A stretch of 64,000 nt of DNA from NCBI RefSeq assembly GCF_000422545.1, contig NZ_KE383873.1, positions 124,001-188,000 on the forward strand. Reading direction: 5' to 3'. This stretch comes from Desulfocurvibacter africanus subsp. africanus DSM 2603 (GTDB lineage: Bacteria > Desulfobacterota > Desulfovibrionia > Desulfovibrionales > Desulfovibrionaceae). Below, one piece after another: positions 25,964 through 32,417 of this stretch. The first letter of the stretch is position 1. Each line of letters opens with the position of its first letter. The position numbers were made by a program, and so were the translations under genes. Under the pieces are notes generated by a model. The model ran no database searches. It was not told the DNA's origin and was given only the letters and a program-made list of their open reading frames with translations.

Positions 25964-26030
25964 GGATTCAAATCTGCTATGCTTGCTTCACAGCACGCCG
26001 GCTCCGGCAGTCGGTAGCGAGGGGTATGGC

Positions 26031-26852
26031 ATGAACGACCATGGCCAGGCCGAACGCCTGCCGAAGGAAACCATTTACCATCACCAAGTCAGCCCTGCGG
26101 GCGCGGCTTTGGAGGTGGACCGCTTCAGCCTCTGGTACGGAAACAAGCAGGCGCTTTTCGACAACAGCCTGGATATCCAGCAAGGACTGGTCACGGCGCT
26201 CATCGGTCCCTCGGGCTGCGGCAAGTCCACGCTCATTCGGGCCATGAACCGCATGAACGATCTCGTCAAAGGCGTGCGCGTGCGCGGGGAGATCCGCCTG
26301 GCGGGTCGGAAAGTGTACGACCCGGGCGTGGACGTGACCGATCTGCGCAGGCGCATGGGCATGGTTTTCCAGAAGCCCAATCCTTTTCCGCGTTCCATCC
26401 TGTCCAACGTGACCTACCCCCTGGAGCTCACGGAGCATCCTGGGAAACCGGCGCTGCTTGAGGCGGCAGAGCATGCGCTGCGGGACGCCGGCTTGTGGAA
26501 TGAGGTCAAGGACCGGCTCGGCGCCGACGCCCTGAGTCTGTCAGGCGGTCAACAGCAGCGTCTGTGCATCGCCAGGGCCATCGTGACCAAGCCCGAGATC
26601 CTGCTCATGGACGAGCCCTGTTCGGCCCTGGACCCCAGGGCCACAGCCGCGGTAGAAGACCTCATAGGTGCCCTGCGCGGCAGGTATACGGTGATCATCG
26701 TGACCCACAACATGCAGCAGGCCGCGCGCGTTTCGGACAATGCGGCCTTCATGTACCTGGGCAGGATCGTTGAGCACGGACGCACTGACGTCGTGTTCGT
26801 CCGACCCAAGGCAAGCCTGACCCAGGATTACATTACCGGCAGGTTCGGATAG
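26031..26852 (+). CDS. pstB: phosphate ABC transporter ATP-binding protein
   Basis: This 273-residue ABC ATPase has all the PstB features. SLWYGNKQALFDNSLDI is followed by Walker A GPSGCGKSTLIRAMNRMNDL. Mid-protein it has RMGMVFQKPNPFPRSIL, then the signature LSGGQQQRLCIARAI and Walker B ILLMDEPCSALDP. It drives phosphate uptake with PstC and PstA, which are not in this window. The ATG at 26031 follows GAGGGG; the longer frame from 25983 is rejected. phoU follows 11 bases downstream. Confidence 0.95.
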   Translation: MNDHGQAERLPKETIYHHQVSPAGAALEVDRFSLWYGNKQALFDNSLDIQQGLVTALIGPSGCGKSTLIRAMNRMNDLVKGVRVRGEIRLAGRKVYDPGVDVTDLRRRMGMVFQKPNPFPRSILSNVTYPLELTEHPGKPALLEAAEHALRDAGLWNEVKDRLGADALSLSGGQQQRLCIARAIVTKPEILLMDEPCSALDPRATAAVEDLIGALRGRYTVIIVTHNMQQAARVSDNAAFMYLGRIVEHGRTDVVFVRPKASLTQDYITGRFG

Positions 26853-26863
26853 GAGATTCTGTC

Positions 26864-27556
26864 ATGCCAGATAAGATGAGCAGTGGAGAGCGCAAGGGGC
26901 ACACGGTCAAGGAGTTCGATCGGGAACTGGAAAAGCTTTCGAACACGGTCCTGGCCATGGGCCGCAAGGTCGGCGAGCAGCTTGGCCTGGCGGTCAAGGC
27001 CGTCAAGGAACGGGACGCTGCCGCCGCTGCCGCCGCGCGGGCCATGGATGACGAGGTTGACGACCTGGAAGACCGCATCGACGAGGACATGCTCCGGCTG
27101 CTGGCTCTGCGCAACCCCATGGCTCTGGATCTGCGCACGGTCATCGTCGCAGGCAAGATCGCCACTGACTTGGAGCGAATCGGTGATTACTGCGCCAATC
27201 TGGCCAGGATGACCCAGCGTCTCGCCAGCAGGGATCTGGACATCTTCCGCTCGCATCTAACGCTAATGGCCGACGAGGTCGGGGGCATGCTGGCTCAGAT
27301 CATGGAAGCCGTCGCGCGGGAAGATGTCGAACTGGCCCTGGGCGTCTGGCATCGCGATAAGGCCGTGAATACTTTGTACAAGGAATTTATTGCCCTGCTT
27401 ACCCAGCACATATGCGAGGACCATAAACTGAACGATTCCCTGTCGCGGCTGCTGAACGCGGCGCGCGGCTTGGAGCGCATGGGCGACCACATCACCAACA
27501 TCGCCGAGCACGTCTATTTTCAGGTCCACGGCGCCAAGTACCGGGAAAAGTCATAG
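26864..27556 (+). CDS. phoU: phosphate signalling protein PhoU
   Basis: This 230-residue all-helical protein has two PhoU three-helix repeats. The first contains MGRKVGEQLGLAVKAV and DDEVDDLEDRIDEDMLRLLA. The linker ARNP-type motif reads LRNPMALDLRTVIVAGKIA, followed by DLERIGDYCANLA. The second repeat ends LERMGDHITNIAEHVYF. PhoU couples the Pst transporter to the phosphate two-component system and limits phosphate uptake. It forms an operon with pstB. Length and motif spacing are typical. Confidence 0.95.
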   Translation: MPDKMSSGERKGHTVKEFDRELEKLSNTVLAMGRKVGEQLGLAVKAVKERDAAAAAAARAMDDEVDDLEDRIDEDMLRLLALRNPMALDLRTVIVAGKIATDLERIGDYCANLARMTQRLASRDLDIFRSHLTLMADEVGGMLAQIMEAVAREDVELALGVWHRDKAVNTLYKEFIALLTQHICEDHKLNDSLSRLLNAARGLERMGDHITNIAEHVYFQVHGAKYREKS

Positions 27557-27661: not shown

Positions 27662-28630
27662 ATGCCGCAGGATGGCCGACGCGTGGAAGCCAGGATCAAT
27701 CTTCAGATCGAAGCCCAGCCCGACGACTCCACCTGTGGCCCCACCAGCCTGCAGGCCGTGTATGATTACTATGGTGACGACATCGGCCTGGAACGGGTCA
27801 TCCGGGAGGTCCCCCGCTTGGAAAACGGCGGCACCCTGGCGGTCCTGCTCGGTTGCCACGCCCTGGAGCGCGGCTACCGGGCTGTGTCATACACCTATGA
27901 TCTGCGCGTTTTTGATCCGACCTGGTTCATGCTGGGCAAGGACCTGCTCCTGGAGAAGCTGGCCATGCAGCTCACCTACAAGCAGAGCCCGCGCATGGCC
28001 GAGGCCACCGATGCCTACCAGCGCTATCTGCGACTGGGCGGCCAGATACGCTACCAGGATCTGCACGGCGGCCTGCTGCGCAAATACCTCAAGCGCGGAA
28101 TACCGGTGCTGGCCGGTCTGTCCTCCACCTATCTGTACGGCTCGGCCCGCGAACTCGATTTCGGCGACCGTCTGGTGCACGACGATGTGCGCGGCGAACC
28201 CTCGGGCCACTTCGTGGTCCTGTCCGGCTACGACATCAAGGGACGCAGCGTGACCGTGGCCGACCCGCTCAGCCCCAATCCCATGGGCCAGAGCCAATTC
28301 TACGAGGTGGGCATAAGCCACCTCATCAACGCCATCATGCTCGGCATAGTCACCTATGACGCCAACCTGCTGGTCATTCTCCCTCGCGAGGACAGCAAGC
28401 TCCGGGAGCCCGACGGCCGCTCGCGAACTCCGTTACGGCGCAAGACGGATATTGCGCCGGTGAGTGACAGGACGCCGCAGGAGCAGTCTTCGCCTCGCAT
28501 TCGCCGGGAGCAGGCGCTCATCCAGGCGAGTCAGGCAGACCGGGTGAACCAAGCCGGTGGAAAAAAGAAGAAACGCACCTCCGGCAAAGTCCGGTCGCGA
28601 GGCAGCGGCGGAGGGGGCGGCAAGACCTAG
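27662..28630 (+). CDS. C39-like papain-fold cysteine peptidase
   Basis: This 322-residue protein has a peptidase C39-like fold. The likely catalytic Cys is C25 in DDSTCGPTSLQAVYDYYG, the His is H183 in SGHFVVLSGYD, and the third residue is D201 in VADPLSPNP. The last 90 residues are basic and low-complexity (GGKKKKRTSGKVRS, then a Gly run) and may bind nucleic acid or a polyanion. It has no signal peptide. It is the first gene of a four-gene run with two carboxylate-amine ligases and an amidohydrolase, so it may cleave or cyclise the peptide product. The ribosome binding site is weak; a GTG at 27683 is an alternative start. Confidence 0.75.
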   Translation: MPQDGRRVEARINLQIEAQPDDSTCGPTSLQAVYDYYGDDIGLERVIREVPRLENGGTLAVLLGCHALERGYRAVSYTYDLRVFDPTWFMLGKDLLLEKLAMQLTYKQSPRMAEATDAYQRYLRLGGQIRYQDLHGGLLRKYLKRGIPVLAGLSSTYLYGSARELDFGDRLVHDDVRGEPSGHFVVLSGYDIKGRSVTVADPLSPNPMGQSQFYEVGISHLINAIMLGIVTYDANLLVILPREDSKLREPDGRSRTPLRRKTDIAPVSDRTPQEQSSPRIRREQALIQASQADRVNQAGGKKKKRTSGKVRSRGSGGGGGKT

Positions 28631-28745
28631 AGTCGCCTGCGCGAGAGCGGGAAGGCTTTCCTGCCCAGACCCTGCCCACGGGTCGTTTCCGGACGCGGGC
28701 CCCGGATTCGCGCAGCTCCTGCAGGTGCCATAAAGAGGAGGGAAT

Positions 28746-30218
28746 TTGTCGAATCTTGTGGTCATCGAGAATCCCGAGGAGTGCCCGCTACACTTCGATG
28801 GAGTGGATACGGTCTCCGCCAGGACTTACCTGACCGGCAAGGAGTGTAGTCGGCGCGGGGCTTTCAAGGTCTTTAATCTCTGCCGTTCCTACCGCTACCA
28901 GTCCATGGGCTATTATGTCTCCCTGTTGGCCGAGGCCCGCGGGCACAAGGCCTTCCCTTCCATCCTGACCATCCAGGACATGAAGTCCTCGGGGCTCATC
29001 CGCCTGACCTCCGACGAACTGGAGGAGAGCATCAACAAGGCCCTGAGCGGGCTGGACCAGCAATGCAAGCCCTGCTTCAACATCTACTTCGGCAAGTCGC
29101 CCGGCGGCCTGCACGCGTCCATGGCCATGGACCTATACCGGCGTTATCCCACGCCGTTCCTGCAGGCGGTCTTCTCCTGGGACAAGGGCTGGCGGTTGCA
29201 GAACATCTCGCCCCTGGCCGTGCGTGAGATACCCGAAGGCGAGCGGGCTTTCGCCGAGGAAACAGCCAACACCTTTTTCGCGGCCAAGCGCCATGTTCTG
29301 CCCAAGAAGCATGTCTCGCGCTTCGACTTGGCCATTCTGCACAATCCCGAGGAAAAGATACCGCCCTCCAACGAACGGGCCCTGCAACGCTTCATCAAGG
29401 CCGCCGCCGGACTGGGCATCGCGGCCGAGCTCATCACGCGCGACGACGCCGACCGCATCTTCGAGTTCGACGCCCTGTTCATCCGCGAGACCACGAGCGT
29501 GGACCACCACACCTACCGCATCGCTCGCAAGGCCGCCTCGGAGGGACTGGTGGTCATCGACGATCCCGTGTCCATCCTGCGCTGCACCAACAAGGTCTAC
29601 CTGGCCGAGGTGCTGCGCCAGAACAGCGTACCCGCGCCAAAGACGCTCATCGTGCACAGCCGCAACATCGATGAGGCCCTGCATGAGTTCGCTTTCCCGG
29701 TCATCCTTAAGCAGCCCGACAGCTCCTTCTCCCAAGGCGTGAGCATGGCCCGCGACGAGAAGGAGTTCCTGGCCATGCTCAAGCGGCTGCTGGACAAGTC
29801 CGACCTGGTCATCGCGCAGGAGTTCCTGCCTTCGGAATTCGACTGGCGCATTGGCGTGCTGGACCGCCAGCCGCTCTACGCCTGCAAGTATTTCATGGCC
29901 GGAAGCCACTGGCAGATCATCCAGCGCGACGGCGCGGGCCAGATCAAGGAAGGCAGAGTGGAGACCGTGCCCGTGGAGTTCGTGCCCCAGCAGGTGCTTA
30001 AAACCGCCCTGCGCGCGGCCAATCTCATGGGCGACGGCCTGTACGGCGTGGACCTCAAGCAGAAGGGCAAGCAAGCCTACGTCATCGAGGTCAACGACAA
30101 TCCGAGCATCGAACAAGGCTTCGAGGACAACGTGCTTAAGGAGGAGTTGTACGACCGTATCATGCGCGTGTTCCTCGCGCGCATCCAGGCCGGCAAAAAG
30201 GGGAATTGGCTGCTATGA
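28746..30218 (+). CDS. RimK-like ATP-grasp ligase with N-terminal RLAN domain
   Basis: This 490-residue protein has an N-terminal domain of about 180 residues seen in a RimK subfamily (RLAN), containing ARTYLTGKECSRRGAFKVFN. A RimK-type ATP-grasp module follows. It has DDPVSILRCTNKVYLAEVL, VPAPKTLIVHSRNID, then FPVILKQPDSSFSQGVS and IAQEFLPSEFDWRIGVLD. The metal site is YVIEVNDNPSIEQGFED. It should form an amide bond by acyl-phosphate activation of a carboxylate. The start is TTG just after AGGAGG. Its stop overlaps the next start (ATGA). The neighbours suggest a peptide-like product rather than ribosomal S6. Confidence 0.86.
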   Translation: MSNLVVIENPEECPLHFDGVDTVSARTYLTGKECSRRGAFKVFNLCRSYRYQSMGYYVSLLAEARGHKAFPSILTIQDMKSSGLIRLTSDELEESINKALSGLDQQCKPCFNIYFGKSPGGLHASMAMDLYRRYPTPFLQAVFSWDKGWRLQNISPLAVREIPEGERAFAEETANTFFAAKRHVLPKKHVSRFDLAILHNPEEKIPPSNERALQRFIKAAAGLGIAAELITRDDADRIFEFDALFIRETTSVDHHTYRIARKAASEGLVVIDDPVSILRCTNKVYLAEVLRQNSVPAPKTLIVHSRNIDEALHEFAFPVILKQPDSSFSQGVSMARDEKEFLAMLKRLLDKSDLVIAQEFLPSEFDWRIGVLDRQPLYACKYFMAGSHWQIIQRDGAGQIKEGRVETVPVEFVPQQVLKTALRAANLMGDGLYGVDLKQKGKQAYVIEVNDNPSIEQGFEDNVLKEELYDRIMRVFLARIQAGKKGNWLL

Positions 30219-31450
30219 GCACGCTGCGACTGTTCGAGGCCTACGGCATCGAGATCGAGCACATGATCGTGGACAGGCAAAGCCTGGATCTGCGGCCCGT
30301 GGCCGATCGGCTGCTGGAGGCCGAGGCCGGTGTGCGGACGGCCGATGTGGAGCGCGAGGACATGGCCTGGTCCAACGAACTGGTGCTGCACGTCATCGAA
30401 TTCAAGACCAATGGCCCGGCTTCCAGCCTGCATGGCTTGGCCCGCAAGTTCCACGCCGAGACACTGCGCGCGGGCGAACTGCTTGCGCCCCTGGGCTGCC
30501 GTCTCATGCCCACGGGCGCGCACCCCTGGATGGACCCGCAGACCGAGACGCGCCTGTGGCCCCACGAGTGCGGCGTCATCTACCAGACCTATGACCGCAT
30601 CTTTTCCTGCAAGGGCCATGGCTGGTCCAACCTGCAGAGCATGCACATCAATTTGCCTTTTGCCGACGACGAGGAGTTCGCCCGGCTGCACGCGGCCATC
30701 CGTCTGCTGATGCCGCTCATGCCGGCCCTCACGGCCAGCACGCCCGTGCTGGACGGCCGGGCCACGGGCTTCCTGGATACGCGCATGGACTACTACGCGC
30801 GCAACTCGGCCCGCGTGCCCAGTGTGACCGGCCTCGTGGTTCCCGAGCAGGTCGCCAGCCGCGAGGAGTACGATCGGATCATCATGCAGCCCATGTTCGC
30901 GGACATGGCGCCCTTGGACCCGGAAGGCGTGTTGCGCGAGGAGTTCCTGAACGCGCGCGGATCCATCGCCCGCTTCGGCCGGGGCTCCATCGAGATCCGG
31001 GTGCTCGACGCCCAGGAGTGCCCACAGGCCGACCTGGCTGCGGCAGGGCTTATCTGCGCCGCGCTGGAGGCCTTGTGCGACGGCCGGCGGGGTGACCTGG
31101 ACGCACAGGCCAGGCTGTCCACCGAGTCCTTGGCCGCAATCCTGGCCCGCGTCACGCGCGAAGCCGATACGGCAAGCGTGGAGGATGCAAACTATTTGCA
31201 GGTCCTCGGCTTTCCAGGCGAGCCTGGCGCGCGGGCCGGCGAGGTTTGGTCCTGGCTGGCGGAAACCTGCCTGCCGGCGGCCTTGCGCGACCAGGACTGG
31301 GAAGAGCCGCTGGCGGTCATGCTCGGCCAGGGATGCCTGGCCCGGCGCATCCTCGACGCCTTGGGGCCGGATTTCGGACGCGGCCGCTTGTTGGAAGTCT
31401 ATGCCGAATTGTGCGACTGTCTGGAAGGTGGCAGACCCTTTAGGCCCTAA
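30215..31450 (+). CDS. glutamate-cysteine-ligase-like carboxylate-amine ligase (GCS2 superfamily)
   Basis: This 411-residue protein begins STLRLFEAYGIEIEHMIVD, the conserved E-x-E metal/ATP-binding strand of the GCS2/glutamine synthetase fold. NELVLHVIEFKTNGP carries further acidic ligands, and WSNLQSMHINLPF and ARFGRGSIEIRVLDAQECP are later core strands. The fold forms amide bonds between an amino acid carboxylate and an amine using ATP. It overlaps the RimK-like gene by four bases and is surely coexpressed with it. Presence of two distinct ligases implies at least two condensation steps. It is not a standard gshA or ybdK. Confidence 0.8.
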   Translation: MSTLRLFEAYGIEIEHMIVDRQSLDLRPVADRLLEAEAGVRTADVEREDMAWSNELVLHVIEFKTNGPASSLHGLARKFHAETLRAGELLAPLGCRLMPTGAHPWMDPQTETRLWPHECGVIYQTYDRIFSCKGHGWSNLQSMHINLPFADDEEFARLHAAIRLLMPLMPALTASTPVLDGRATGFLDTRMDYYARNSARVPSVTGLVVPEQVASREEYDRIIMQPMFADMAPLDPEGVLREEFLNARGSIARFGRGSIEIRVLDAQECPQADLAAAGLICAALEALCDGRRGDLDAQARLSTESLAAILARVTREADTASVEDANYLQVLGFPGEPGARAGEVWSWLAETCLPAALRDQDWEEPLAVMLGQGCLARRILDALGPDFGRGRLLEVYAELCDCLEGGRPFRP

Positions 31451-31586
31451 AGCTGCTTGCGCGAGAGATGGAAAGGGTGTTGCCTGCTCGCGGCTCCGCG
31501 ACTGTTCATTGGCGGATGGTCAAAGCCGCAACGCGGAGGGCGGCGTCGGAGGAGGCTTGACGAAAGGAGCGACAATACGCCTGCCG

Positions 31587-32417
31587 ATGGCAGCGCGACG
31601 GACCGCCGGCCCTGGCTCGGCTCGGCAATGGCGCAGACGCTTGCGCAGCCGGGCCTTTTCCTGGCGCGCGGCTGTGGCGGCTCGGAGCGTTCGGACAGAC
31701 ATCGCCTGCGTCGTGACCTGCGAGCACGGCGGCAACCGTGTGCCACCCGAGCATGCGCATCGATTTGTGGGTCTGGGCGACGAGTTGGCCGGCCATCGGG
31801 GCTGGGATCTCGGCGCGCTGGAGGCGGCCGGAGATCTGGCCCTTGCACTGGAAGCGGAAATGGTCGCCGCCACAATCACCAGGCTGCTGGTGGACCTGAA
31901 TCGCTCATCCGGACATCCGCGCCTGTTTTCCGAGGCCACACGCGGCTTGCCGCCTCAGGAGCGCGAGGAAATTTTGTGCCGCTATTACTATCCCCATCGG
32001 AATCGGGTGCGCGGCATCGTGGCCGGAGAACTGTCTGCCGGCAGGCGCGTGCTGCACATTGCCGTGCATAGCTTCACGCCCGTGCTGTCCGGCGTGGAGC
32101 GCCGTGTCGACGTAGGGTTGCTTTATGATCCCTCGCGCGAGGCCGAGGCCCGATTTTGTCGCCTGTGGCAGGAGGCTCTGCACGAGCGCGACCCGGTCCT
32201 GAGCGTGCGGCGCAATCACCCGTACAAGGGCGTGTCCGACGGTCTGACCACGAGCCTGCGCCAGGAGTTCGGCCTGCGCTACATGGGCGTGGAGCTGGAG
32301 ATCAATCAGAAGTTCGTGGCCATGGACACCACTTCCGGCAGCGGGGCATGGAAGCGCCTGTGCGGGACGCTGACCCGCTCGGCCCAGATGGCCCTGGAGC
32401 GGCTGGCGCAAGGCTGA
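31587..32417 (+). CDS. N-formylglutamate amidohydrolase family protein
   Basis: The conserved part of this 276-residue protein starts VVTCEHGGNRVPPEHAHRF, with the Glu/His metal-binding pair typical of N-formylglutamate amidohydrolase. HRGWDLGALEAAGDLA, LLVDLNRSSGHPRLFSE and HIAVHSFTPVLSG follow. The family are Zn-dependent hydrolases related to carboxypeptidases, cleaving formyl or amino-acyl amides. The first 45 residues are Arg-rich and atypical. The ATG at 31587 lacks a well-spaced ribosome binding site (AGGAG is 17 bases away), so the true start is unsure. In this setting it may hydrolyse the product of the two upstream ligases rather than act in His degradation. Confidence 0.8.
   Translation: MAARRTAGPGSARQWRRRLRSRAFSWRAAVAARSVRTDIACVVTCEHGGNRVPPEHAHRFVGLGDELAGHRGWDLGALEAAGDLALALEAEMVAATITRLLVDLNRSSGHPRLFSEATRGLPPQEREEILCRYYYPHRNRVRGIVAGELSAGRRVLHIAVHSFTPVLSGVERRVDVGLLYDPSREAEARFCRLWQEALHERDPVLSVRRNHPYKGVSDGLTTSLRQEFGLRYMGVELEINQKFVAMDTTSGSGAWKRLCGTLTRSAQMALERLAQG

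Follow-up and report, generated by a model that had tools for sequence, protein, structure and literature searches.

RimK is a ligase that attaches glutamate to ribosomal protein S6, a modification that RimB reverses, and LysX and ArgX act on the carrier protein LysW. Neighbourhoods combining RLAN-RimK ligases, GCS2 ligases and peptidases reportedly appear as predicted peptide-synthesis sets in the 2009 amidoligase survey of Iyer, Abhiman, Burroughs and Aravind; our own literature searches for the combined families turned up nothing usable. Here we analyse such a module in a 64,000-nucleotide stretch (the window; contig NZ_KE383873.1, positions 124,001 to 188,000) of the 4.40 Mb genome of Desulfocurvibacter africanus subsp. 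africanus DSM 2603. At positions 27662-32417 of the window, on the plus strand, a C39-like cysteine peptidase gene is followed by genes for an RLAN-RimK ATP-grasp ligase, a GCS2 ligase and an FGase-family amidohydrolase. With RimK (an S6-glutamate and poly-alpha-glutamate ligase) and RimB, the set shares the ATP-grasp fold (Z 26-27), the Arg/Asn glutamate contacts and the pairing of a ligase with a peptidase. However, the window ligase has an additional RLAN domain, is at most about 20% identical to RimK and misses the S6-ligase cut-off, and the set has a cysteine rather than an aspartic peptidase, plus GCS2 and FGase. LysX and ArgX, which form an amide on glutamate, are what the ligase domain resembles most closely in structure (3vpd, Z 27.9; 3vpb, Z 27.1), but the module lacks a conserved LysW-like carrier and lysine or arginine pathway genes. 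The component families are known, and the module is of a known but uncharacterised kind; examined in this analysis are its retention when the genes are unlinked, the nesting of FGase and the Alr0975-like fold of the peptidase. The reading that we favour, at about even odds (a probability of roughly 0.5), is that the four genes serve a cytoplasmic pathway of their own, in which a small peptide or isopeptide containing glutamate is made and turned over. The features of the module are, in window coordinates:

27662-28630, plus strand: C39-like papain-fold cysteine peptidase, 322 amino acids, without ABC-transporter domain
27734-27736, 28208-28210 and 28262-28264, plus strand: peptidase catalytic residues C25, H183 and D201, to which an oxyanion-type Q19 is added
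28385-28627, plus strand: basic C-terminal tail of the peptidase, residues 242-322 approximately, 22 Lys/Arg, mostly predicted disordered, lineage-specific
28746-30218, plus strand: RLAN-RimK ATP-grasp carboxylate-amine ligase, 490 amino acids, TTG start
28818-29261, plus strand: RLAN N-terminal domain of the ligase, residues 25-172 (Pfam)
29589-30116, plus strand: RimK-type ATP-grasp domain of the ligase, residues 282-457, containing R368 and N450, with R247 just N-terminal to it
30215-31450, plus strand: GCS2-family ligase, 411 amino acids, with E13, E15, E260, R262 and D265 invariant in aligned relatives
31674-32417, plus strand: FGase-family amidohydrolase, about 247 amino acids from a likely GTG start at 31674 (alternative ATG at 31587)

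The four genes are one conserved functional unit, in an arrangement far beyond chance. A scan of 84,980 species genomes with back-translated patterns gave 222 relatives of the ligase, which is a lower bound, and the best 80 of these were retained; they are 46 to 61% identical to it over the full length. They come from Thermodesulfobacteriota, Bacteroidota, Planctomycetota, Verrucomicrobiota, Omnitrophota, Bdellovibrionota and others, the closest in the RLAN tree being Desulfovibrionaceae and other Thermodesulfobacteriota, and the module is found in at least seven phyla. The C39 gene lies directly upstream and the GCS2 gene directly downstream of RLAN, on the same strand, at 61 of the 71 loci with enough flanking sequence, and the full quartet, including a next-door FGase, at 43 of the 69 with more flank. 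The expectation, put forward from the sequence alone, that the neighbourhood is kept together elsewhere therefore survived. With 43 of 69 linked, FGase is an accessory rather than a core member, and no fifth partner gene recurs across phyla at the RLAN loci. Two Desulfovibrionaceae (L091 and L093) carry a divergent module whose ligase clusters with Verrucomicrobiota and not with the window clade, which suggests transfer of this divergent module between phyla.

Presence patterns were compared in 59 related genomes, belonging to 47 genera. RLAN-RimK occurs in 7 of them, the C39-like peptidase in exactly the same 7, GCS2 in those 7 and one more, and FGase in 5, all among the 7 with ligase and peptidase. 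The additional genome (G019), of the same family as that of the window, has a GCS2 orthologue at L088:5691-7052 that is 51% identical, with no RLAN-RimK or C39 partner found genome-wide. When a gene was missing at a locus, it was sought in the remainder of that genome. The planctomycete genomes of L026 and L037 carry unlinked GCS2 and FGase orthologues, so that all four genes are present despite their scattering, and in four further genomes (those of L025, L041, L049 and L083) FGase is located away from the module. In G001, FGase lies on a separate contig and is closest to that of G025, as are the C39, ligase and GCS2 proteins of G001. Overall, FGase was found in 53 of 65 genomes with C39, RLAN and GCS2, and in none of 8 lacking C39 or GCS2 (Fisher p 9e-6, for genomes that are not independent and include some incomplete bins, a weak match at L046, 2e-22, being scored absent). 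RLAN is found alone in L011, L024, L028 and L035, with C39 in L070 and with GCS2 in L056, L074 and L085, several of these being incomplete metagenome bins. From these nested patterns (RLAN, then C39 and GCS2, then FGase), the ligase is the core and C39 and GCS2 form the next layer, with FGase dependent on the full set. The pairwise distances of the four proteins correlate (0.77 to 0.86), under a permutation control that leaves shared species history in.

Each of the four genes named in the sequence-only reading is present and could be assigned to a Pfam family, and the overlap that it described, between the RLAN-RimK stop and the GCS2 start, is an ATGA at 30215-30218. The FGase reading frame is open far upstream of the gene; composition and the start positions of relatives place its likely start near the GTG. 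The peptidase matches PF13529 Peptidase_C39_2 (2.6e-11, 44.7 bits for a gathering cut-off of 24), the N-terminal part of the ligase PF14401 RLAN (6.5e-45, 152.9 bits for 25) and its ATP-grasp part PF08443 RimK (4.7e-12, 46.3 bits for 21); GCS2 matches PF04107 across the whole domain (2e-30, 106.6 bits for 21) and the amidohydrolase PF05013 FGase (1.9e-25, 90.7 bits for 28.9). Curated models of narrower function are missed widely: RLAN-RimK scores 18.6 bits against the S6-glutamate ligase equivalog NF007764 (cut-off 331), FGase 17.7 bits against the HutG N-formylglutamate deformylase model TIGR02017 (cut-off 278.75), and GCS2 stays below all glutamate-cysteine ligase and YbdK models of NCBIfam (TIGR02050, 55 bits for 176.4; TIGR02048, 43 for 249; others lower). 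None of the three is therefore the textbook enzyme of its family, and these cut-offs rule out a HutG identity for FGase and an S6-ligase identity for RLAN-RimK.

The active sites are intact throughout. For the ligase, K283, K322, E448 and N450 are invariant in 94 aligned sequences, and the invariant R247, R368 and N450 align with R64, R189 and N262 of Pseudomonas aeruginosa RimK, residues that contact bound poly-glutamate in the structure of that enzyme (PMC10092738). The predicted model of the ligase (predicted local distance difference test, pLDDT, of 90) has LysX, ArgX and RimK as its best folds, with Z 26 to 28 over residues 193-485 approximately. GCS2 has in common with YbdK and with the plant and cyanobacterial glutamate-cysteine ligases the whole-domain Pfam match and the ExE and ExRxxD motifs; unlike them, it belongs to a distinct subfamily, with E values of 0.0015 to 0.002 to solved members. 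In FGase, residues E17, H18, R70, N76, R77, H132 and E207 are invariant in aligned relatives, and we take them to bind metal and carboxylate, by likeness to aspartoacylase. Atu2144 (2odf) is a full-length sequence match of this protein (3e-35), and, unlike the case of HutG, no histidine-degradation genes adjoin it.

The C25/H183/D201 triad proposed for the peptidase proved correct: neither these residues nor Q19 vary in 82 aligned peptidases. Its predicted model (pLDDT above 90 for residues 11-240 approximately, below 60 over most of the tail) has two tied best matches, the double-glycine peptidase 6mpz (Z 16.2, 136 residues, 2.1 A) and Alr0975 (2bu3; Z 16.2, 164 residues, 2.7 A), a phytochelatin-synthase-like protein seen as an acyl-enzyme with glutathione; the isopeptidase PeiR comes next (Z 14.8). 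In fold, the peptidase thus groups with enzymes whose cleavage sites are Gly-Gly, or glutathione and isopeptide bonds. Like Alr0975 and the C39 double-glycine peptidases PCAT1 and ComA, it has a papain-type fold and a Cys-His-Asp triad (Z about 16), but it is a stand-alone protein of a distinct family, 14 to 24% identical to them and without transporter fusion.

As to the Lys/Arg/Gly-rich tail that had been remarked on, it does exist, but it is not a conserved feature. Desulfo-clade peptidases tend to have short, basic tails, that of the window being the longest (81 residues), with a median net charge of +3.5 compared with 0 elsewhere (Mann-Whitney p 3e-4, uncorrected for relatedness). Their C termini at L005, L009, L016, L020 and L092 show recurrent short basic ends with an RSRRH/RSRGH-like motif, and [RH]SR[RG] is common to four distinct peptidases, including that of the window. 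Outside the Desulfo-clade the basic tail is not shared, which rules out a general functional importance; it is a lineage trait outside the module core.

Two ligases of unlike fold and two hydrolases of unlike fold, kept together with an ordered dependency, point to the assembly and later processing of a single metabolite or tag. Since the predicted catalytic residues of all four enzymes are intact, amide or peptide synthesis and hydrolysis is the right chemistry for the set, as the sequence-only reading had it. In the pathway that we propose, RLAN-RimK would activate a carboxylate with ATP and join it to an amine, the partner being probably glutamate or another acidic amino acid, and GCS2, of the gamma-glutamyl type of ligase, would make a second amide link. 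The Cys-His-Asp triad of the C39-like enzyme would then serve to cleave the product or to transfer a portion of it, and the FGase metalloenzyme would hydrolyse an N-acyl-amino-acid piece, probably N-acyl-glutamate-like, whose formation needs the complete pathway. The retained RimK glutamate contacts, together with GCS2, favour glutamate in the product. A small cytoplasmic product, rather than a protein tag, is favoured by the lack of a precursor peptide, a transporter and a conserved target gene.

Some points weigh against this pathway. Although a precursor gene is missing, the target may still be a protein whose gene lies elsewhere. The gamma-glutamyl specificity of GCS2 is not established, its similarity to YbdK and glutamate-cysteine ligases being distant. 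Finally, given the genomes with RLAN alone, with RLAN and C39 or with RLAN and GCS2, no single fixed two-ligase product fits all. More tentatively, and at odds clearly short of even, the module may stand for a family of bacterial isopeptide metabolites or carrier adducts not described before and used in at least seven phyla, which two unlike ligases would make and a phytochelatin-synthase-like cysteine transferase, together with a metalloamidohydrolase, would process.

Among the alternatives, a removable protein tag survives best, and we give it perhaps one chance in a handful or slightly better. A protein would receive amino acids from RLAN-RimK and GCS2 and lose them again through the action of the C39-like enzyme and FGase. 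The nearest ligase folds, RimK, LysX and ArgX, act on protein C termini or on a carrier protein, the additional RLAN domain could bind a protein, and a ligase opposed by a peptidase follows the RimK-RimB logic (PMC12239564). However, the surroundings of the module hold no conserved gene for a small carrier or target, two unlike ligases and an N-acyl-amino-acid hydrolase exceed the needs of a tag cycle, and the ligase falls below the curated S6-ligase cut-off.

A glutathione- or phytochelatin-like thiol, or a gamma-glutamyl tripeptide, is improbable. Here GCS2 would make gamma-Glu-X, the ATP-grasp ligase would add a third residue, and the peptidase, as a C39/Alr0975-like enzyme, would cleave or transpeptidate the product. 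Glutamate-cysteine ligases do have the GCS2 fold, the Alr0975 match of the peptidase is tied for best, and this GCS2 is the only one in the genome, where GSH-S_ATP is matched no more than marginally (24.1 bits for a cut-off of 23). The phytochelatin synthase family PF05023 is matched weakly by 6 of 59 related peptidases (best E 0.046), but not by the window peptidase at E<=1, and PF13529 and PF03412 suit the peptidase far better. Moreover, GCS2 is far under every curated glutamate-cysteine ligase cut-off, nothing indicates cysteine as a substrate, and genomes with RLAN yet without GCS2 occur.

Very unlikely is a modification cluster for a ribosomally synthesised and post-translationally modified peptide (RiPP), in which the ATP-grasp enzyme would modify a precursor and the double-glycine-type peptidase would remove its leader. 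To our knowledge, neither GCS2 nor FGase takes part in RiPP pathways. The compact, overlapping genes come without an ABC transporter, and within 800 bp of the module genes no small open reading frame is conserved from genus to genus; a graspetide-like cluster was dropped for want of such a precursor, although graspetide loci contain both C39 double-glycine peptidases and ATP-grasp ligases (PMC8939145). Four unrelated housekeeping neighbours, for instance a histidine-breakdown enzyme of the HutG type beside a RimK that modifies ribosomes, are hardly credible. Each family does have members with other roles, but the order conserved over phyla, the matched presence patterns and the co-retention when unlinked refute a chance neighbourhood, and the HutG and S6-ligase scores are far too low.

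Some loci carry additional genes. In planctomycetes, a fusion of a GNAT acetyltransferase with a carbon-nitrogen hydrolase lies near RLAN (L034:6321-7880, L052:4093-5649 and L080:10763-12328; 64 to 74% identical), and in L080 it is placed between GCS2 and FGase. In two gammaproteobacteria, a GNAT gene adjoins RLAN-RimK (L028:9472-9954 and L035:7458-7910) at a locus devoid of C39, GCS2 and FGase. Desulfosediminicola has an AstE/AspA-type deacylase gene beside GCS2, on the opposite strand (L013:10738-11862), in a genome without FGase, possibly as an analogous replacement. Such genes would suit a peptide metabolism, but their number is too small to carry weight. Arginine genes are found near the module only in Pontibacter, as genus-level synteny, and a tie to arginine biosynthesis was rejected. 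In the window, pstB and phoU (25983-27556) are directly upstream, the end of phoU being 106 bp before the peptidase gene, on the same strand, and the pst permease genes do not adjoin them. In Desulfopila (L011:5692-9470), a polyphosphate kinase gene is directly upstream of a lone RLAN-RimK, 60% identical to that of the window. As no other locus is alike, a general tie to phosphate regulation was discarded.

That the unit is kept over such distances, even when scattered, indicates a product worth making in many lifestyles. Its dependency pattern, with the ligase first and the hydrolases nested, renders the order of steps testable. Knowing the product would mean a new peptide metabolite or protein modification for Thermodesulfobacteriota, Bacteroidota and Planctomycetota, and would show what the RLAN domain and a large family of C39-like peptidases do.

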